Source: a virus. Taken from it: DNA of 21,190 nt. Of this stretch, positions 1 through 18,593 are shown piece after piece. The stretch covers positions 1 through 21,190 of the IMG/VR virus record IMGVR_UViG_3300008108_007865. One strand, given 5' to 3'. The notes below the pieces were generated by a model. That model was not told the DNA's origin, ran no database searches, and saw only the letters and a list, made by a program, of their open reading frames with translations. Made by a program: the position numbers and the translations under genes. Position 1 is the first letter of the stretch; each line of letters begins with the position of its first letter.

Positions 1-477
1 TTCTATTTGTTTATTTGTAAATGTACCGTCTTTTCCTTTGACTTCAATGCATTTATCAAATCGTTTAACCACATCAAACCCAAGATAGTCTACATGTTTG
101 TCTCTTGCAAAGTGCTCATAAAAAGAACCATAACCACAACCGATCTCTCCAATAATAGTTTTCCCAAACCTGCAATCGCAATTATTAATACCCCAACTAA
201 CTAACCCCAGCATACCAGAATACTGGGCTATTTTGTTGTTAGTGTAATTTGCCTGAGAAATAGAAGAAGAGTTTGTTTTATTAATATATCCATTGCAAAC
301 AGTATCAGTATTAAACCATTTATCAGTAGCCTTCCAAAATGCTTTTGGGCTAATTTTATCTGGATCGAGTAAATCGACAGTGTACTGTTTATGGAGGTTC
401 AAGTCATTATAATAATCTGAAACATTGTTCCATCCCTGATTTTTCCAAACATCGATAATTTTATTTTTAGTCAGCAT
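1..477 (-). CDS. SAM-dependent methyltransferase, N-terminal part (cut by window start)
   Basis: The reading frame starts with ATG at 477 and stays open to base 1, giving 159 residues with no stop, so the C-terminus lies outside the window. Around residues 110-120 it carries IGEIGCGYGSFYEHF, a typical class I methyltransferase motif I (E/DxGxGxG) that binds S-adenosylmethionine. It is followed by YLGFDVV, which fits the motif II strand ending in an acidic residue. The first 100 residues contain several Trp and Asn residues and no motif I recognise. The substrate cannot be read from the sequence; sugar or small-molecule methylation would fit the glycan genes at 3999-5697, but that is inference. 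It starts five bases after the prepilin-like gene stops, so the two are probably co-transcribed. Confidence 0.8.
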   Translation of the reverse strand, partial: MLTKNKIIDVWKNQGWNNVSDYYNDLNLHKQYTVDLLDPDKISPKAFWKATDKWFNTDTVCNGYINKTNSSSISQANYTNNKIAQYSGMLGLVSWGINNCDCRFGKTIIGEIGCGYGSFYEHFARDKHVDYLGFDVVKRFDKCIEVKGKDGTFTNKQIE

Positions 478-481
478 ATTA

Positions 482-913
482 TTAAAAATAACCAGTCTTA
501 AACCATAGCTCTCGTCTTACTGGAGAATCATCTGGAGCATTTGGTGGCCATATAAATGTAGTATCGATCATATTGAAATTATTTGATTTGTCTACGGTAT
601 ATTCTACCTTTATTGCAGCTTTGCTAGAATCATTTGTTATCATACCGTTCTCGTTTAAAAAGAATGTTCTGTTTTGAGATAGTGTAAAGTTTCCAACGTA
701 TGGTAATGGTATAGGCTGATCTCTATGCTCTCTTGGAAAGACATCCCATATACCAAAAATAGTTTCACAAAAATTGTTTGCTATAGTTTCGTTTTCAACC
801 GAACGGACGGAATATAAAGCAATAGAAAGTAAACCAAAAATACTTACTATAACGGAAGCAAATATTCCTATTGCCACAATTACTTCAATCAAAGAAAACG
901 AATTCTTTTTCAC
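482..913 (-). CDS. Prepilin-like protein with class III (type IV pilin) signal
   Basis: I place the start at GTG 913, because it gives the short basic leader MKKNS followed by FSLIEVIVAIGIFASV. This is the classic prepilin pattern: a positively charged leader, cleavage before Phe, Glu at mature position 5, and a hydrophobic N-terminal helix of about 20 residues. A TTG at 949 is in frame but would overlap the upstream gene. Residue -1 is Ser instead of the usual Gly. The mature part (about 138 residues) has a helix followed by a mixed region ending in RRELWFKTGYF, consistent with a minor pilin or pseudopilin of the PilV/GspI type. The segment after the motif (SIFGLLSIAL) reminds me of Verrucomicrobia cassette pseudopilins, which is memory and not a search. 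No prepilin peptidase or pilus ATPase is nearby, so host machinery would be needed. This is highly unusual in a phage. Confidence 0.75.
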   Translation of the reverse strand: MKKNSFSLIEVIVAIGIFASVIVSIFGLLSIALYSVRSVENETIANNFCETIFGIWDVFPREHRDQPIPLPYVGNFTLSQNRTFFLNENGMITNDSSKAAIKVEYTVDKSNNFNMIDTTFIWPPNAPDDSPVRRELWFKTGYF

Positions 914-929
914 AAAGCCTAATATAGAA

Positions 930-1265
930 TTATTCGTAGGACAAGTCAAGCCAATTTGTATCTTCGGGCATTATTTCCATTATGACGCCATGCTCTTTAG
1001 ACTTCTCAATAATATCCTCCAATACACCCCGACCGTACATATGCGTTCCATAGTTACTTTTATAGCATTTATAAATAGAACCGGAATAACCTTCAAACAA
1101 ATAACATTTATCACCTTCAGACACGTACTTTATTCCACTGTTCATTTTCCAGGAATTAGATCCTAGATAACCACCAAACCAGCAGCCAAACACTTTATAT
1201 GTCAAAGGAAATTCCCCTCCTTCAATCTTAACAACTACCCATCTCTCTGGTACATATTCACTCAT
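930..1265 (-). CDS. Hypothetical protein
   Basis: This encodes 111 residues rich in Tyr, Gly and Trp (for example WFGGYLGSNSW and YKSNYGTHMYGRG), with an acidic C-terminus ending EDTNWLDLSYE. I see no signal peptide, membrane segment or known motif. The start ATG at 1265 overlaps the stop of the YopX gene by one base (TAATG), and a GGAG about nine bases upstream is a good ribosome binding site. Translation is probably coupled to the YopX gene, as in other small-gene runs of phages. It is likely a small soluble accessory protein; I assign no function. Confidence 0.7.
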   Translation of the reverse strand: MSEYVPERWVVVKIEGGEFPLTYKVFGCWFGGYLGSNSWKMNSGIKYVSEGDKCYLFEGYSGSIYKCYKSNYGTHMYGRGVLEDIIEKSKEHGVIMEIMPEDTNWLDLSYE

Positions 1266-3694: not shown

Positions 3695-4009
3695 TTAAAA
3701 ACCATCAAAATTATTTTTTACCATCTCTTCAGCTAAATTTACTTGCCAGCAATTGTTCTTATAATCCCAATGGCGAATATCTATAATCTGAAAATAAACT
3801 TCTTTACCTAGCAAACTGAGTGCTAATCTTACCCCAGCGTGATCTTCTCGAAAACCGATTTTAAACTCTATGCTAAAAATGTGCCAGCTATCCGTAACAC
3901 ATTGCATTTCAAAATCTTTATGTTTTGTAAGTTTTTTATGAAAATAAAAATATGATTTAAAAATATTTTTATCTTTCCAGAAATTTCGAATTGAAAAATT
4001 AACGTACAT
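3695..4009 (-). CDS. Conserved hypothetical phage protein
   Basis: This encodes 104 residues. The core reads IFSIEFKIGFREDHAGVRLA, ALSLLGKEVYFQI and DIRHWDYKNNCW. The combination of an 'xDHAGxxL' stretch and a 'xxDxRHWDY' stretch recurs in uncharacterised phage proteins I remember, and suggests a beta-rich fold. I see no membrane segment. ATG 4009 overlaps the end of the nucleotidyltransferase gene by 11 bases, so translation is probably coupled. Function unknown. Confidence 0.7.
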   Translation of the reverse strand: MYVNFSIRNFWKDKNIFKSYFYFHKKLTKHKDFEMQCVTDSWHIFSIEFKIGFREDHAGVRLALSLLGKEVYFQIIDIRHWDYKNNCWQVNLAEEMVKNNFDGF

Positions 4010-4721
4010 ATGTGTTATATATTTGTGTTTTTATACTGTCCCATGTCCCGAGATCAATATAGTCATCAATCTCTATTGCTCTCGCTTTATAGAGCACTGT
4101 TTCTTTGAATGATGGCTTAGTACTTGTATAAAAGTGCTGAATGGTATTAAGCGCATCATCAAATACTCTCTTTGTAAATGCAAGCCCGCCCCAATAAGCA
4201 TTAAAGCGATCACCTATATCGCAAGGCTTATCATCATAATCTACCACTTCATTACCCTTTACATATAATGCACCTCTAGTTGTTAATATAGAGGGTGAAT
4301 CTTCTTTTTTATAAAGAAAGGCAAACTCTGAATTATCAAGTGTATTGCATATAGTTGTTACAATATCTATGGAAGGATTTATTTTAAGGATAGTATCCGG
4401 CAACAAAACAAGATTTTTTTCACCGAGCAAATGTTTAGTGCTCTTAATAGATCCCGGCACATCTTTTTCTTCAGGGTTAAAATAGGTAAAAGAGATATTA
4501 AACCGGTGCTTATACTTACTTAGATGTTGGATAATGTCTGTCTTGTCTTCGGTTATCGTAATAGCGAAATGCAAATCACTTCTATTATAAGCAGAGAACA
4601 AATCAAATGTATAATCGATCAAACTTTTATCTTTTTCAAAGCTATATATTTCCTTTGAATACGGTAAGCCTAATCTCTCACCTTTACCTGCGCATGGTAG
4701 GATAACAGTTAATTTACACAT
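3999..4721 (-). CDS. Sugar nucleotidylyltransferase-like protein (GT-A fold)
   Basis: This encodes 240 residues. The N-terminus MCKLTVILPCAGKGERLGLP followed by YSKEI is the NTP-transferase signature (GxGxRxxP-x-x-K), which binds the nucleotide. LVLLPDTIL (Asp109) fits the metal-binding aspartate. The C-terminal IDDYIDLGTWDSIK matches the end of RmlA-type and related enzymes (W/YxDIGTxxxY). The expected reaction is sugar-1-phosphate plus NTP to NDP-sugar plus pyrophosphate; the sugar cannot be assigned. It is shorter than RmlA (about 290), with no extra C-terminal domain. It is divergent from a GT61 glycosyltransferase, so both may serve glycan modification of virion or host surface. The 58-base gap to that gene holds two palindromes. 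Confidence 0.8.
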   Translation of the reverse strand: MCKLTVILPCAGKGERLGLPYSKEIYSFEKDKSLIDYTFDLFSAYNRSDLHFAITITEDKTDIIQHLSKYKHRFNISFTYFNPEEKDVPGSIKSTKHLLGEKNLVLLPDTILKINPSIDIVTTICNTLDNSEFAFLYKKEDSPSILTTRGALYVKGNEVVDYDDKPCDIGDRFNAYWGGLAFTKRVFDDALNTIQHFYTSTKPSFKETVLYKARAIEIDDYIDLGTWDSIKTQIYNTYVR

Positions 4722-4744
4722 TTTTAAATAATATTATTATCGAG

Positions 4745-4775
4745 TTTGCATAATGCAAAATATTTTATAAAATAT
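4745..4775. promoter_or_regulatory. Two perfect palindromes in a divergent intergenic region
   Basis: Between the divergent starts at 4721 and 4780 lie two adjacent perfect inverted repeats. Bases 4745-4759 are TTTGCAT-A-ATGCAAA (7-base arms). Bases 4760-4775 are ATATTTTATAAAATAT (8-base arms with no spacer). The first has the form of a dimeric repressor operator. The second contains TATAAAAT on both strands, one insertion away from a T4-type late promoter core, and could be a bidirectional promoter element. AT-rich DNA produces AT palindromes easily, so the first site is the stronger one. Confidence 0.45.
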
Positions 4776-4779
4776 CTTA

Positions 4780-5697
4780 ATGGTAGAGAAAAAATTAAAA
4801 AGCTTTTTTTTAAAAAGAAAGTTTTGGTCACCACAAATGCAGGAAATTTTTCATGAATTCAAGCATTATGAAGGTATAGAGTATGCATTTTCTGGCGATA
4901 TTACTGTCGATCACTTATATCATATACACAATACACCAGATAATGTTTATAGGTTGCTTACTAAAATGATACCTTCTATAATCGAAATGAGTAAAACTGA
5001 GGATCTCAATATACTCGTTTCTAATATTGATTCAAAAAATAAGCCTCTTAAAGAGTACATGAATCTACTAGGTATTAAAAATATTCAGTATTATAATATA
5101 CAGGATATAAAATATGTAAAGAATTTACAACGCCTACCATTTAATAAATTACATGCTGGTCCAGGGTGTGCTTTGACATTAGATGTCCTTACACGATATA
5201 GAAGTCTGATTACCGGTACTACAGATTATAAGAAAATAGTTATAACACGCAATAATAATAGATCAATACCAGATAATATTATGATGTTCCTGTTAAAGAA
5301 AGGGTTTCAACCTGTGACGCTCGAAGAGATGTCGGTCCAGAATCAAATCAATCTCTTCGCTGGTATTACACATGTAGTAGGAGCACAAGGTGCAGGGTTT
5401 GCAAATTTAGTTTATTGTAACCCGGGTGTCAAATCTTTAGAATTATCTGCAGGCTTTGATTTAAAATTATATACCAATCTCGCTAATCATATAACTGATA
5501 CTTTAAACGTTAAAAAAAGAATATCGCATCTACGAATTGACCGCGATGAAGTATTTACAGATCCTAGTTATACTAAAAAATATGATAAATTTACAAGAAA
5601 ATGTAAATTTTACAATGCACCAATAAAGCTAAGCTACGATAGGTTTGTAAGTGAATTTAATACCCATTTTGACGATTTATCTTCTAATGACAAATGA
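4780..5697 (+). CDS. GT61-family glycosyltransferase
   Basis: This encodes 305 residues and is one of only three plus-strand genes. The C-terminal half carries the GT61 (DUF563) signature: KKIVITRNNNRSIPDN near 151-166 (family pattern 'hYhSRxxxxxRxhxNE'), then GFQPVTLEEMSVQNQINLFA, then GITHVVGAQGAGFANLVYCN around 195-213, where the GAxGAGxxN segment is the most conserved part. These enzymes transfer sugars such as xylose or GlcNAc from NDP-sugars. No signal peptide or membrane segment is seen, so it acts in the cytoplasm. It has no Shine-Dalgarno and an AT-only leader. The 3' end overlaps the convergent gene at 5677 by 21 bases. It probably works with the divergent nucleotidyltransferase. 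Acceptor unknown. Confidence 0.85.
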   Translation: MVEKKLKSFFLKRKFWSPQMQEIFHEFKHYEGIEYAFSGDITVDHLYHIHNTPDNVYRLLTKMIPSIIEMSKTEDLNILVSNIDSKNKPLKEYMNLLGIKNIQYYNIQDIKYVKNLQRLPFNKLHAGPGCALTLDVLTRYRSLITGTTDYKKIVITRNNNRSIPDNIMMFLLKKGFQPVTLEEMSVQNQINLFAGITHVVGAQGAGFANLVYCNPGVKSLELSAGFDLKLYTNLANHITDTLNVKKRISHLRIDRDEVFTDPSYTKKYDKFTRKCKFYNAPIKLSYDRFVSEFNTHFDDLSSNDK

Positions 5698-5889: not shown

Positions 5890-6173
5890 TTCTTCTTTTT
5901 CTTTTTCGGTGTTTCTTTTTTAATACCTAATGTCTTATCCATCAACATCTCTACATCATCTATAGTAACACCCATACAGCCTGTAATACCGATTATATGA
6001 TCTATTACTTCTTTATAGAGATCATACACAAAAGCATCATCTTCTATATACCTTTTAAATTCTGCAGAATCGACAAGAGAGCGAAGAGCTTTTGAGTGTT
6101 TATGAATTTGCCCAATATGCGTTGTGAAGATATCAATCAACTGGTTACCGGTAGATGGTTTATGTTCTTTCAT
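5886..6173 (-). CDS. Hypothetical protein with poly-lysine tail
   Basis: This encodes 95 residues, predicted mostly helical, with an acidic middle (YIEDDAFVYDLYKEVIDHI) and a C-terminus ending KKETPKKKKKK. The lysine tail comes from an A-rich sense-strand run (5886-5915) that could also promote ribosome slippage, so the exact C-terminal length deserves caution. No motif is recognised. It is divergent from the small plus-strand gene at 6213, with 39 bases between them. Confidence 0.62.
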   Translation of the reverse strand: MKEHKPSTGNQLIDIFTTHIGQIHKHSKALRSLVDSAEFKRYIEDDAFVYDLYKEVIDHIIGITGCMGVTIDDVEMLMDKTLGIKKETPKKKKKK

Positions 6174-6199
6174 TATGATAGTAATTATGGCTTATATAG

Positions 6200-6207
6200 T
6201 ATAAATA
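6200..6207 (+). promoter_or_regulatory. TATAAATA, T4-like late promoter core
   Basis: This is an exact match to the core recognised by gp55-type late sigma factors in T4 and related phages, in a 39-base divergent intergenic region. With T4 spacing (core at about -13 to -6), transcription would begin at about 6213, the A of the ATG of the small plus-strand gene, giving a leaderless message. Short AT motifs occur by chance in this DNA, so the evidence is positional only. Confidence 0.4.
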
Positions 6208-6212
6208 ATTAT

Positions 6213-6320
6213 ATGGAAAAGCTAAAAGAAAAAGTTATTGATTTAATCACAAAGTACCCGAAGCTTACAATTTTTTTAGGTGGCTTTGTTAGCGGCTATC
6301 TTTTTAGAGCGATTTTCTAA
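6213..6320 (+). CDS. Very small membrane protein on opposite strand
   Basis: ATG 6213 gives 35 residues: MEKLKEKVIDLITKYPKL followed by TIFLGGFVSGYLFRAIF. This is an amphipathic basic N-terminal helix and one short hydrophobic segment with a GGxxSG helix-packing pattern. A longer in-frame extension to 6096 runs back through the coding region at 5886-6173 and is not credible. It has no Shine-Dalgarno, but TATAAATA lies just upstream. The last 45 bases overlap the convergent gene that ends at 6276. The clean amphipathic/hydrophobic organisation argues for a real protein; a holin-like or superinfection role is possible but unsupported. Confidence 0.5.
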   Translation: MEKLKEKVIDLITKYPKLTIFLGGFVSGYLFRAIF

Positions 6321-7064
6321 TATTGCTTTGTAAGGTTTCTGTACAACAACATAGTATAAGGAATCCTTCTCTTCAATTTTCATACCGCTACCTCCAGGGA
6401 GCTTTTTATTCTTGAAAGCTTTCTCTACCGTATCCCATACACCACTCCAGTTATTGCTTTGCACCAATGATGCAATTTTTGGTTGATATCTCTTAGGAAT
6501 GATAAATTCCTTTTTCGGTACCCAATATGCTTTTGTTTCTGGATCAATCACTTTCGCGTCAGGAATGTTAGATATATTAAGGACACCGTCACCGTCCACA
6601 CCCATATCTCGGTAACCATCATTTCGTTCATAATGTAAAAACTCTTCTATTGCTTTTTTGATCTCCCAGGCAACAGTACCCCTCGTCATTTCTTTACACC
6701 CTACACCGAATGATGAGTTAGGATGGTCAAGATGAGGTCTAATTTTTTTATTTACCCAATCTTCACTTTCTCTTACAATCTCTCCACTTTCATCATACTC
6801 ATTATTATATTGATCATAGAACCCACCGTGACCATCATATTCTCTCTTGGCGTTAGGAGGGAATGCGATAGACCTTATCACATTTTCTATGTATTGACCT
6901 TCTTCATAAGTAAGACTTCTATCCCAATAGACTTCATCCATAGCCATTTTAATTTGACCGGATTGAAGACGAGAATAGGTTTCAAGAGCTGAAATAAGAA
7001 CTAATAGATGTTGCCGTTCAAACTCTATTTGAACTCTTTTAGATTTATTATTTTGTTTCTTCAT
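6276..7064 (-). CDS. Conserved hypothetical phage protein
   Basis: I chose ATG 7064 (MKKQNNKSKRVQIEFERQHL), giving 262 residues; the upstream in-frame extension is inside the preceding gene. The N-terminal half is helical, then come EYDGHGGFYDQYNNEYDESG, DHPNSSFGVGCKEMTRGTVA, and DMGVDGDGVLNISNIPDAK. The C-terminal 90 residues (IIPKRYQPKIASLVQSNNW to the end) look like a separate small domain ending in a basic helix. There are many Asp, Asn and Gly residues but no catalytic motif I can name. The 3' end overlaps the small plus-strand gene. Function unknown. Confidence 0.7.
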   Translation of the reverse strand: MKKQNNKSKRVQIEFERQHLLVLISALETYSRLQSGQIKMAMDEVYWDRSLTYEEGQYIENVIRSIAFPPNAKREYDGHGGFYDQYNNEYDESGEIVRESEDWVNKKIRPHLDHPNSSFGVGCKEMTRGTVAWEIKKAIEEFLHYERNDGYRDMGVDGDGVLNISNIPDAKVIDPETKAYWVPKKEFIIPKRYQPKIASLVQSNNWSGVWDTVEKAFKNKKLPGGSGMKIEEKDSLYYVVVQKPYKAILENRSKKIAANKAT

Positions 7065-8996: not shown

Positions 8997-9052
8997 AATA
9001 TTGAAGAATAGTTGAATTCATTGTCACCTGCAAGCCTTTTTTTGTAAAAAAG

Positions 9053-9125
9053 CTACGGAGATAGGACTCGAACCTATAACCCTCAGATCCAAATTCTGAT
9101 GCACTACCAATTGTGCTACTCCGTA
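9053..9125 (-). tRNA. tRNA-Gln (anticodon TTG)
   Basis: The cloverleaf folds fully. The acceptor stem TACGGAG/CTCCGTA has seven pairs, the D stem is GCAC/GTGC, the anticodon stem TCAGA/TCTGA encloses loop ATTTGGA with anticodon TTG, and the T stem ATAGG/CCTAT encloses loop TTCGAGT. The first pair U1-A72 and discriminator G73 are known identity elements for glutaminyl-tRNA synthetase, supporting Gln. CCA is not encoded (GCTT follows). It lies six bases after tRNA-Glu in the same transcript direction. Confidence 0.88.
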
Positions 9126-9131
9126 TCAAAG

Positions 9132-9206
9132 TGGCACTCCCAAGGGGATTTGAACCCCTACTACCACCGTGAAAGGGTGGTGTGCTAACCATTACACTAT
9201 GGGAGC
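9132..9206 (-). tRNA. tRNA-Glu (anticodon TTC)
   Basis: The gene reads GCTCCCA acceptor, T8 A9, a D arm with GG, anticodon stem CCACC/GGTGG around loop CTTTCAC (anticodon TTC), T stem GGGG/CCCC around TTCAAAT, 3' strand TGGGAGT, G73 and an encoded CCA. The first acceptor pair is G-T (wobble). It lies seven bases downstream of the stop of the gene at 9213-9407, so it is probably transcribed with the RNA ligase operon and from a TATAAATA site at 9232-9239. Confidence 0.9.
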
Positions 9207-9212
9207 GTGTCA

Positions 9213-9407
9213 TTATTTATTACGATTATCGTATTTATAGAATTGATGGTAGTGTGTATCAAAATAATCACCGACGTCAAATCTATTCCATATATCTTTG
9301 TCAACGAAATATTCAGTTATACCTTCATCCTCATCTTCCATATAGAAAGAATAGCGCGTAAAAAACCAAAATCCCCATTTATCTTTGTGTATAATTTTCA
9401 TAGGCAT
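9213..9407 (-). CDS. Hypothetical small aromatic-rich protein
   Basis: This encodes 64 residues with many aromatic and acidic residues: KWGFWFFTRYSFYMEDEDEG, DIWNRFDVGDYFDTHYHQF. Start ATG 9407 overlaps the end of the RNA ligase gene by 10 bases; ATG 9401 is an alternative. I see no motif or membrane segment that is convincing. It sits between the RNA ligase and the tRNA-Glu gene. Function unknown. Confidence 0.65.
   Translation of the reverse strand: MPMKIIHKDKWGFWFFTRYSFYMEDEDEGITEYFVDKDIWNRFDVGDYFDTHYHQFYKYDNRNK
9232..9239 (-). promoter_or_regulatory. TATAAATA (minus strand) upstream of the tRNA pair
   Basis: This is an exact T4-like late promoter core, read on the minus strand, at the very 3' end of the gene at 9213-9407. 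It is about 26 bases upstream of the mature tRNA-Glu 5' end, which would leave a short leader for processing. It may be coincidental because the motif sits inside a coding sequence (codons for YKY). Confidence 0.3.
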
Positions 9408-10483
9408 TGATGCATTAATTTTATTTTATGTTCGTTAGTTAATTCCTTATTATTCAGCATATGGAAAATATAAGACGTTCGATTAGTATTTGTATATGTT
9501 GCAATTATGAATTCAGCTTGTTGTTTTCTTGTTTCAAAATTTCGTATGCTTTTGACAAAATCCTTCATACTCTCTATCAACTCTGCTACATGGCTACCAG
9601 TATCACATATCTTTGTAATTAATGGATCAAGTTGCCGTACAATTTCAAAATCAAATTCTGTCTCTATCTTCTTAGAGAAGACGTCATACGACGGCATGCC
9701 AGATTCTACATAGTATTCAATCAAGTTATTTTCAGAGTTCAATTGAGATTTTACTCTATGAAGAAATAAATACCAGTCAGATTTTAATTTAATTCGGTTT
9801 TGCCCATTATTATACGATATAACAATACCTTCTTTACCTTTCCAGTGCTTAATTGTTTCTGCTATTTTAGAAAGATCATTAGTATCTAAGAAATTATATG
9901 ATTGAGGCACAGGCATCTGCCCGATCTTTCTCCATATATCGATTAAATCAGATGAAGAGACAACACACATTCCGTTCTTGTTTATGGCGCCAATAAGATA
10001 GAATTCTATTTGCTGTGGTCTAACAACAATAACATTATTAGGTGTTACAATCTCAAACAAAAGAGTTAAGTGTTGATTGTCTTTTAAAAACTCTTTTACT
10101 TTTGGGTATCTCTCTGGTAACAATTCAAAATCTCTAGCGTTTTCTTGCAATGTATAAGAAACAGTTCCTCTCGTTCTCATTGAGAACTGCTCATTAACAT
10201 AGTCTGCAATAAGCAAAGAGCCGTCGATTTTATCTTCAAGCTTCCAGTCATTAAACTCTTCAGGCTTTGGATAACAGTCAGGCTTTTCACCGTAATTAAA
10301 AAACTTTGGAAAGCCAGAAGATAAAACATTACCTTCTTTATCTGTAATCAAAGAGCGGTAAAATAAATTATTATTACTCCACTTTGCGTCAATTTGCGGA
10401 GTTACAAGATAACAATCTAAACCGCAAAACTTATTCGGAGTAATATTAAAATACCCTTCTTCTACTGGTAAATGTACTTTCAT
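9398..10483 (-). CDS. RNA ligase, T4 Rnl1-like
   Basis: This encodes 361 residues, close to T4 Rnl1 (374). All nucleotidyltransferase motifs are visible in order: motif I EDKIDGSLL with catalytic Lys85 (KxDGS), SMRTRG (101-106, motif Ia/III region), FEIVTPNN with Glu144 (motif IIIa), KEGIVISY with Glu218 (motif IV), and NRIKLKSDWYLFLH with Lys232 and Lys234 (motif V). The helical C-terminal domain (about 245-361) matches the tRNA-specificity domain of Rnl1. The expected role is ATP-dependent joining of 5'-phosphate and 3'-OH RNA ends, as in repair of tRNA cut by host anticodon nucleases. It starts directly after the AAA ATPase gene stops (TAAATG) and lies upstream of two tRNAs. No polynucleotide kinase is in the window. 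Confidence 0.9.
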   Translation of the reverse strand: MKVHLPVEEGYFNITPNKFCGLDCYLVTPQIDAKWSNNNLFYRSLITDKEGNVLSSGFPKFFNYGEKPDCYPKPEEFNDWKLEDKIDGSLLIADYVNEQFSMRTRGTVSYTLQENARDFELLPERYPKVKEFLKDNQHLTLLFEIVTPNNVIVVRPQQIEFYLIGAINKNGMCVVSSSDLIDIWRKIGQMPVPQSYNFLDTNDLSKIAETIKHWKGKEGIVISYNNGQNRIKLKSDWYLFLHRVKSQLNSENNLIEYYVESGMPSYDVFSKKIETEFDFEIVRQLDPLITKICDTGSHVAELIESMKDFVKSIRNFETRKQQAEFIIATYTNTNRTSYIFHMLNNKELTNEHKIKLMHQCL

Positions 10484-14236: not shown

Positions 14237-14322
14237 TGGTGGGTGTGGATGGATTCGAACCAACTCAACCAATGGTAACAGATTTACAGTCTGCTGCGAC
14301 TCTCCAGCTTCGCCGCACACCC
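14237..14322 (-). tRNA. tRNA-Tyr (anticodon GTA)
   Basis: The acceptor stem GGGTGTG/CACACCC is perfect, followed by A73 and an encoded CCA. The anticodon region CAGACTGTAAATCTG gives loop CTGTAAA with anticodon GTA. A long variable arm (TTACCATTGGTTGAG) shows a class II tRNA, as expected for bacterial tRNA-Tyr. The T arm has TTCGAAT. It lies four bases downstream of the tRNA-Met gene. Confidence 0.9.
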
Positions 14323-14326
14323 AAAT

Positions 14327-14401
14327 TGGTAGCGGGTGTGGGAATCGAACCCACCTAAAGAGGCTTATGAGACCCCCCAATTCCCAGAATTGTAACCCGC
14401 A
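14327..14401 (-). tRNA. tRNA-Met (anticodon CAT), initiator-like
   Basis: Fixing the register by the encoded CCA (14327-14329), A73 is preceded by T72, and base 1 is T, so pair 1-72 is a T-T mismatch while 2-7 pair perfectly with 66-71 (GCGGGT/ACCCGC). T8, A9, D stem CAAT/ATTG, anticodon stem GGGGT/GCCTC around loop CTCATAA, and T stem GTGGG/CCCAC around TTCGATT all fold. An unpaired 1-72 and A11-T24 are known marks of bacterial initiator tRNAs. Against this, only two of the three conserved G-C pairs next to the anticodon loop are present (T31-G39 replaces the third). An elongator Met or CAT-Ile tRNA remains possible. Confidence 0.8.
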
Positions 14402-14449: not shown

Positions 14450-15154
14450 TTATACCTTTATATAAAAAAAGCCGTGCTTATCCTTACACTTTGTAGGATC
14501 AACAATAAACATGGTAATGGTCTTACGTAAGAAGCGTGTAAGCTCTACAGAATGCCAAGATTCTTCACTTCTACGAAATATTGTTGCTCTGTTGCCTTGT
14601 GCTTTCACTTCTTTTACCGCTGTAAAGCTTTCATCAGCGTTTTTAATTAATAAATCCGTGCCTGGCATAGGTAAGTATTGTACCCTACCATCTACCGCAC
14701 CAAAAGATGGGAAATATATAATCATCGAAACATACTTAGAAATATTATCAGTATGTGGCTCTAAAGCTTGGCGGTTTTCATGTGGCAAATCCCAACAATA
14801 ATCACACATCCACCCTATATCACCATCAACTTCTACATTGAATTTATTCAAAATATTTTCAGCTAATTCTCTGGTAAAGATTTGTGAGAAAGTTTTGTAT
14901 AGATTTTTTGCTTCGGGATTAGGATTCGACGTTTCAAGATCAAAAGCTGTTTTGATAAATCGATACTTCCACTTCATAAAGTCATGAAACCCTATATCCG
15001 TGTGTTCAGGAAAATAGCGATTTAATTGACGGTAAAATTCTTTGGGTAAAAAGTCATCAATTACAACATGTTGAAAAGGGTATTCTTCTACCTTTGTCTC
15101 ATTTATCTTCTGCGTAATGAAACTACGCACTTCATCTGCTTTATCTGCAGCCAT
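14450..15154 (-). CDS. 2-oxoglutarate/Fe(II)-dependent oxygenase (prolyl hydroxylase-like)
   Basis: This encodes 234 residues. The iron-binding facial triad is visible as LEPHTDNISKYVSMIIYFP (His134, Asp136) and SWHSVE (His201), with Arg210 (RFLRKTITMF) as the expected 2-oxoglutarate ligand. The N-terminus EEYPFQHVVIDDFLPKEFYR matches the P4H-type opening 'xPFxHxxIDxFLPxxxxxxL'. It therefore hydroxylates a protein, nucleotide or small molecule using O2 and 2-oxoglutarate. Such enzymes are frequent in marine T4-like phages, with unknown substrates. The gene lies upstream of the tRNA-Met/Tyr pair and 13 bases downstream of the metallopeptidase. No Shine-Dalgarno is seen before the start. Confidence 0.88.
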   Translation of the reverse strand: MAADKADEVRSFITQKINETKVEEYPFQHVVIDDFLPKEFYRQLNRYFPEHTDIGFHDFMKWKYRFIKTAFDLETSNPNPEAKNLYKTFSQIFTRELAENILNKFNVEVDGDIGWMCDYCWDLPHENRQALEPHTDNISKYVSMIIYFPSFGAVDGRVQYLPMPGTDLLIKNADESFTAVKEVKAQGNRATIFRRSEESWHSVELTRFLRKTITMFIVDPTKCKDKHGFFYIKV

Positions 15155-17579: not shown

Positions 17580-18593
17580 TTAGTCTTTATAGTTTCTATT
17601 GATAAGTTTAAACCCAAGTGGTCTCCGTGATTCAAATGAACGCGGGTAGCTTGAAGGTCTCACAACAATACCTTCTGCCTCCCAACCACTAGCATATTTT
17701 TGCTTGTCCGCAAGTTCTTGTAGTTTTTGCAATGGGTCTGTCCATAACTTAATAGTAGATGCTACTTCTAGTTTTGCAATCAAAGGTACGACATCACATT
17801 TAAGTTCATTTTCACAAAAATTCTTCATTACATCATATGACATATAAATACCACCTGTTTTGATTTGAAAAACAAATATACGTACATCTTCGAGCTTGAG
17901 CGGGTTTCCTTGAATACCATTACCTGTTAATTCACCTTGAATAACACCTGTAAAGCTTTGTGGTATGTTTAGCTTTCTGGCTGCTTTCCAGAAAGCTGAG
18001 TTTTCTGTATCCTTCTTTGATAGATTTCTTGAGCATACTTGTGTTATTTTACCTTCTTCAACTATTATTGTAATACTACTACCGTCAATCTTCTGTGTTA
18101 TAGTGACTTCAGGTTCACTATGCAAGACTTTTTGCACGAGCTCTGGATCATTTAATCCATTATCCTCATCTGTCTTTGAGGCAAGACTTGTAGGAAAATC
18201 ACCGACATTTTCACCAGCAAGATGAGCTGGTATTTCTTTTACATATTTTTTAATGCCAAGAAGCTCGGTTAAATTTTCCCCTACAACAGTTGTTTCGGTA
18301 AATTGTGGTGTAAACTCACTCAAAGAAACAACCAATCCTGAACTATATTCACCACGAAGTTTGATGTTTTTGATTCGAATAGGTTTATCGGGGTTATTTT
18401 TATCAGCTAAGAAATCTGACCAATGGTAGCGTGGTACTATACTATCAATGGTAATGAAGATGACTTTATCACCTTCTTTATGAATTCCTTTCTTAACCAC
18501 TGTTTGCCACCCGAGAACTTCTGCAATTTCTAAAGAATCAGCATTCGGATGCTTTCTAATATTTTTGATTATCTCAATAGATGCGAGCTTCAT
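17580..18593 (-). CDS. RNA ligase, DRB0094 (Rnl5) family
   Basis: This encodes 337 residues. The N-terminal 110 residues form the OB-fold module of this family (IIKNIRKHPNADSLEIAEVL then WQTVVKKGIHKEGDKVIFI), which resembles the tRNA-binding domain of synthetases. The nucleotidyltransferase domain follows: motif I TQKIDGSSITI with Lys168, motif III CSRN (Arg189), QGEL with Glu221, motif IV EGIVVRP (Glu307) and motif V GFKLIN (Lys329). In family members the OB domain is N-terminal, as here, in contrast to Rnl2. The enzyme seals 3'-OH/5'-phosphate RNA ends, possibly also with DNA 3'-OH. This is the second RNA ligase in the window and belongs to a different family from the one at 9398-10483. Confidence 0.9.
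   Translation of the reverse strand: MKLASIEIIKNIRKHPNADSLEIAEVLGWQTVVKKGIHKEGDKVIFITIDSIVPRYHWSDFLADKNNPDKPIRIKNIKLRGEYSSGLVVSLSEFTPQFTETTVVGENLTELLGIKKYVKEIPAHLAGENVGDFPTSLASKTDEDNGLNDPELVQKVLHSEPEVTITQKIDGSSITIIVEEGKITQVCSRNLSKKDTENSAFWKAARKLNIPQSFTGVIQGELTGNGIQGNPLKLEDVRIFVFQIKTGGIYMSYDVMKNFCENELKCDVVPLIAKLEVASTIKLWTDPLQKLQELADKQKYASGWEAEGIVVRPSSYPRSFESRRPLGFKLINRNYKD

Follow-up and report, generated by a model that had tools for sequence, protein, structure and literature searches.

A lone minor pilin carried by phages, its very probable origin in Verrucomicrobiota and its proposed action in a host filament

Some phages are known to disable the type IV pili of their hosts for superinfection exclusion (PMC11656802, PMC11436027, PMC8764522). 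Tip, Aqs1 and Zip control type IV pili (PMC11656802), and a filamentous-phage protein also acts on these filaments (PMC8764522; reviewed in PMC11436027). Our literature searches found no paper on phage-encoded pilins and none on the function of the Verru_Chthon cassettes, the bacterial pseudopilin loci to which the gene described here is related. The PHROGs collection has a phage family named "pilin", PHROG_3433, which it classes with morons, other auxiliary genes and functions of host takeover.

The window, by which we mean the whole 21.2 kb of viral DNA analysed, encodes near one end a small protein with a prepilin-type N-terminus, and the features of this region are as follows.

1..477, minus strand: gene downstream of the pilin, cut by the contig end, with weak methyltransferase similarity
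482..913, minus strand: minor-pilin-like gene of the phage, encoding 143 aa from a GTG at 913, the reading frame being open at exactly these bases
536..550, minus strand: C-terminal WPPNA segment, from the alignment of phage and bacterial rows
836..898, minus strand: hydrophobic N-terminal part of the mature protein (F1, 898-896; E5, 886-884), helical also in a low-confidence structural model
899..913, minus strand: prepilin leader (M/V)KKNS, MNKKA in most relatives
914..949, minus strand: possible leader extension with an alternative TTG start, in frame with the pilin
930..1265, minus strand: partner gene F2, a phage protein of 111 aa
1265..1672, minus strand: YopX-like phage protein, one of the small accessory genes in this run

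The protein begins V/MKKNS-FSLIEVIVAIGIFASVIVS, with F-S-L-I-E-V at the mature N-terminus, and has the features of a class III signal, namely a short basic leader, an aromatic residue (Phe) at +1, Glu at +5 and a run of about 20 hydrophobic residues; starting at the in-frame TTG at 949, 36 bases upstream of the GTG, would give a leader of 17 aa. The prepilin-type signal that the earlier note had read on this phage protein is thus borne out by the leader, F1 and E5, and by the Pfam N_methyl motif, which lies above its cut-off in 6 of the 7 full-length viral relatives. Its stress on Ser at -1 is not, as this residue is a minority variant found only in the window and L003, with Ala in the remaining viral copies, and we reject it as a key feature; bacterial relatives have Ala (29) or Gly (14) at this position. 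Profile searches gave a mixed result in that N_methyl and TIGR02598 both matched, but the window copy falls under both cut-offs: N_methyl reaches 18.3 bits (E 0.0017; cut-off 21.2 bits), and the top NCBIfam model, TIGR02598 (Verru_Chthon cassette protein B), reaches 25.0 bits (E 1.7e-5; cut-off 51.4). The gspI and pilV models match at the N-terminus, with 21.1 bits (E 3e-4) against an equivalog cut-off of 44.35 and with 14.2 bits (E 0.05) against one of 52.2, respectively. No PHROGs family, PHROG_3433 included, matched below E 0.03, and the PDB offered nothing usable by sequence or by fold. A first AlphaFold model, of low confidence (mean pLDDT 50.8), has a helix at residues 8-58 and three strands, and a second model from a deeper alignment was worse (mean pLDDT 48); a fold search with the low-confidence model returned no significant match and no pilin. 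Towards the C-terminus, the W and first P of the WPPNA segment are common to every row of the alignment of phage and bacterial proteins. Judged by its sequence, then, the product of 482-913 is a type IV prepilin-like protein on a phage.

The same gene recurs in other phage sequences, in which the earlier note had advised to look for it, with seven complete copies and one partial copy, 85-94% identical, on contigs of eight other metagenomes. Every contig that extends far enough to show the upstream side of the pilin has F2 there; the two genes share 8 bases in four contigs and are parted by a 75-aa ORF in two, and in most relatives the genes downstream are other than that at 1..477 of the window. 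In contig L066 two F2 paralogues (4690-5028 and 6001-6336) flank a 329-aa gene, which suggests a hot spot of accessory genes in the neighbourhood of F2. Genes for rIIA, a DnaE-type polymerase and RNA ligase stand on several contigs of the group, which also has a weak baseplate-hub match, and the window encodes an S74 tail-fibre protein and two RNA ligases, so we take the pilin-bearing phages to be large tailed phages. The two window ligases differ, being of the T4 Rnl1-like and RNA_ligase/PHA02142 types (9398-10483 and 17580-18593). Elsewhere in the window are a nucleotidyltransferase-like gene (3999-4721, by eye), a GT61 glycosyltransferase on the opposite strand (4780-5697) and a 2OG-Fe(II) oxygenase-like gene (14450-15154), and a related 134 kb phage contig has a tmRNA called by ARAGORN with the unusual tag EAEYIFNNADEFLAGFEEESCALAA (L050:17898-18311). 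Within the group's contigs, all of them fragments, neither a second prepilin nor the other cassette genes (D, C and A) were found.

For its bacterial relatives, we ran a codon-degenerate form of the N-terminal motif, F-[ST]-L-[IV]-E-V-[IV]-x-A-I-G-I-F, over 84,980 species genomes. It gave 27 matches, of which 26 carry Verrucomicrobiota labels; the remaining one, labelled Betaproteobacteria, is probably mislabelled, since its protein closely resembles those of Puniceicoccaceae. An earlier genome scan with patterns from the full pilin alignment had found no match, these patterns probably being too specific. A profile of the phage proteins, run on 388 Verrucomicrobiota genomes and then on 213 genomes of one order, retrieved full-length bacterial matches with E down to 6e-22; the order is Chthoniobacterales, as it includes genomes titled Chthoniobacter flavus and Chthoniobacterales. 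Top relatives are 33-38% identical to the phage pilin over 125-142 aa (E to 2e-25), the closest group comprising L107, L130, L131, L132, L133 and L135, and the window pilin is 38% identical to L130 over 142 aa and to L107 over 137 aa. In their genomes the best of these relatives stand between a D and a C gene, as protein B of D-B-C pseudopilin cassettes, and L107 itself scores 33.9 bits with TIGR02598, also below the cut-off of 51.4. In an IQ-TREE phylogeny the phage clade (support 100/100) is sister to the six closest bacterial proteins, with 99/98 for the joint group. The resemblance to Verrucomicrobia cassette pseudopilins that the earlier note pointed out, and its suggestion of capture from a bacterium, are both upheld by this full-length homology and by the tree with bacterial pseudopilins that it had called for. 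These comparisons leave little doubt that the phage protein is a minor pilin that originated in a pseudopilin cassette of Chthoniobacterales (Verrucomicrobiota).

Scanning viral contigs for the verrucomicrobial pilin motif brought up a different lone cassette-B-like pilin in G614 and G615 (contigs of 82 and 218 kb). Like the window type it stands inside a dense run of phage genes, and about two dozen gene families are common to the two groups of phages at low to moderate identity; the pilins themselves, however, are only 26-31% identical to the window type, have other genomic neighbours and have Gly at -1, where the window group has Ser or Ala. They match nothing in PHROGs. In the tree they group with other bacterial proteins than the window type does, and constraining all phage pilins together was rejected (p-AU 0.008), the bacterial rows having been fetched with the first phage profile, so that closer bacterial relatives of the second type may have been missed. 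By this phylogeny, a second phage lineage has captured a cassette-B pilin separately.

This places the gene among other phage-encoded prepilins, which the earlier note had believed to be rare. Prepilins as such are not: besides PHROG_3433, a start pattern of the GFTLIELLxVIAI type occurs with other prepilin types in at least 120 stretches of viral contigs, some of which may be host-derived. The cassette-B type of the window, in contrast, matches none of these, and what is new is that phages have captured a single cassette-B minor pilin, and have done so twice. Many of the at least 120 viral prepilins are DUF1559 (PF07596) proteins, which recur in sequence clusters, the biggest of 14 and 10 contigs, and several adjoin rIIA/rIIB or UvsX/DnaB-like genes; in L199, L206, L234, L235, L245, L253, L257 and L260 such prepilins lie near these genes, apparently alone, in other large phages. 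On a 104 kb viral contig, a 385-aa ORF (L174:4412-5569) has a GFTLIEVLIALGILG prepilin motif in its interior, after an N-terminal region rich in cysteine, and may be a fusion or have a wrongly assigned start. A tblastn search of named phages with a generic prepilin N-terminus gave no match, though low-complexity filtering may have hidden the query.

Whether the pilin serves the phages at all can be judged from its distribution and its substitution pattern. Its position close to one end of the window contig might speak for host DNA joined in assembly, and a chimeric joint there had been named as grounds for doubt; but contigs from eight other metagenomes have this gene with the same surroundings, several of them together with phage genes, and with nine contigs sharing one setting we regard host contamination or chimeric assembly as refuted. 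The gene is, on the contigs compared, optional among related phages: it was not found in relatives whose polymerase is 81-91% identical, on contigs of up to 134 kb, and where F2 is present without it other small genes occupy its place. This accessory distribution is what one would expect of a host gene picked up passively and useless to the phage. Yet pairwise Ka/Ks is well below 1 (0.08-0.30 in 35 contig pairs), indicating that the pilin is under purifying selection, and its phage-like composition, its presence on at least nine contigs and the second, separate capture all tell against a passenger, which we reject as very improbable. Third-position GC is 0.24, as in the phage, and 0.59-0.72 in the bacterial cassette genes, which points to an old capture and long residence in the phage. 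At silent sites the pilin has diverged less than the other genes that two contigs share: it lies under their median in 35 of 35 contig pairs and under the single gene in 293 of 313 comparisons; although the pairs are not independent, the direction is uniform, and the gene has therefore probably been exchanged between phage backbones that diverged earlier. Use of the hydrophobic helix by the phage itself, in the virion or in lysis, for example as a membrane anchor, would suit a phage-encoded, membrane-targeted protein and finds nothing else in its favour, whereas the optional presence of the gene, its place among small accessory genes and the retention of the full cassette-B C-terminal domain make such a role improbable.

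We favour the explanation that a captured cassette minor pilin has been kept as a working pilin which enters and alters the host filament, and put the probability of this reading as a whole at roughly 0.55. Made from the accessory-gene run during infection, the protein would go into the inner membrane, be processed by the prepilin peptidase of the host and then replace the host protein B in the initiating (tip) complex of a type IV-like host filament, so that the filament is changed or stalled. GspI/PilV-type minor pilins are the model for entry into such a complex, and peptidase processing and entry of the phage pilin are inferred by analogy with them. Of the six genomes with bacterial relatives of the pilin, five encode a prepilin peptidase, and genomes with such relatives have 5-7 PF00437 ATPases, including ones of PilB/GspE size and tandem ones of PilT size. 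A lone protein B without its partners must act within the machinery of the host, and action of the phage pilin inside the host filament is likely. Its net effect is a more tentative matter: inhibition of the filament or superinfection exclusion is possible by analogy, the likeliest benefit being that other phages would be excluded or that progeny would be kept from sticking to the infected cell, and we lean to exclusion because known phage proteins achieve it by other routes. The pilin might instead be an active subunit, an auxiliary gene whose product helps infected cells by boosting or retuning a filament or secretion pseudopilus of the host, for instance in surface attachment, polymer degradation or DNA uptake. 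The signal, Glu5 and the C-terminal signature show no damage and evolve under purifying selection, the whole protein was kept in the capture, PHROGs puts the phage pilin family among auxiliary and host-takeover genes, and the evolutionary data fit such a role nearly as well as that of an inhibitor. However, a protein B that comes alone, with no D, C or A, cannot build the complex, the presumed host already has the cassette, and no accompanying filament gene is seen on the contigs, which are fragments; we consider an active subunit rather less likely.

As to the host, it is only the kinship of the pilin gene to Chthoniobacterales cassette B that points to Verrucomicrobiota, in keeping with the hint in the earlier note. 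Compared with the 213 Chthoniobacterales genomes, the DNA of the window matches essentially only at tRNA genes, and its RNA ligase found no match in them. Four tRNA genes are present in the window, at 9052-9206 and 14237-14401, and its tRNA-Gln gene is up to 85% identical to tRNA genes of Chthoniobacterales, the one group covered by this comparison. Shine-Dalgarno-like sites precede 5-9% of phage starts (window group, G014 and G017), which is about background, and the upstream regions are A-rich. A Bacteroidota host, considered from the missing Shine-Dalgarno signals, was set aside, since sampled Verrucomicrobiota loci also show few such sites and the scarcity does not discriminate.

More broadly, large phages of Verrucomicrobiota may repeatedly take over single minor-pilin genes of the cassettes, whose products would mimic filament subunits and seed or stall the filaments of the host, a generalization for which we put the odds somewhat short of even. 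If true, pilin mimicry would be a general viral takeover strategy in Verrucomicrobiota and their relatives, beside the viral DUF1559 prepilins. From its sequence the pilin also gives a hint at which hosts large uncultured phages infect. That viruses copy protein B suggests a role for the enigmatic Verru_Chthon cassettes, whose filament therefore probably matters at the cell surface.

Among known systems, the phage pilin most resembles Verru_Chthon cassette protein B (TIGR02598) of the Chthoniobacterales group, with which it shares a similar length, the N-terminal motif and the C-terminal W-P segment. It differs from that protein in its phage-like composition, in its C-terminal tail and at mature position 25, where Ser replaces Pro; it also stands alone, without D, C and A, and like L107 falls below the TIGR02598 cut-off. 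GspI and PilV minor (pseudo)pilins belong to the same superfamily, but their equivalog cut-offs are far from reached. PHROG_3433 and the viral DUF1559 prepilins are likewise prepilin-type and phage-encoded, yet they are other prepilin families, and the PHROG match spans only about 40 N-terminal residues of DUF1559 proteins. With Tip, Aqs1, Zip and PfsE the phage pilin would share its proposed outcome, phage control of a host type IV filament; these proteins, however, target PilB, PilZ or PilC, and none is described as a pilin. The known controllers hit the motor, the platform or regulators; a tip-type pilin taken from a host would work as one of the subunits of the filament itself, an action that is directly testable in a heterologous pilus system.
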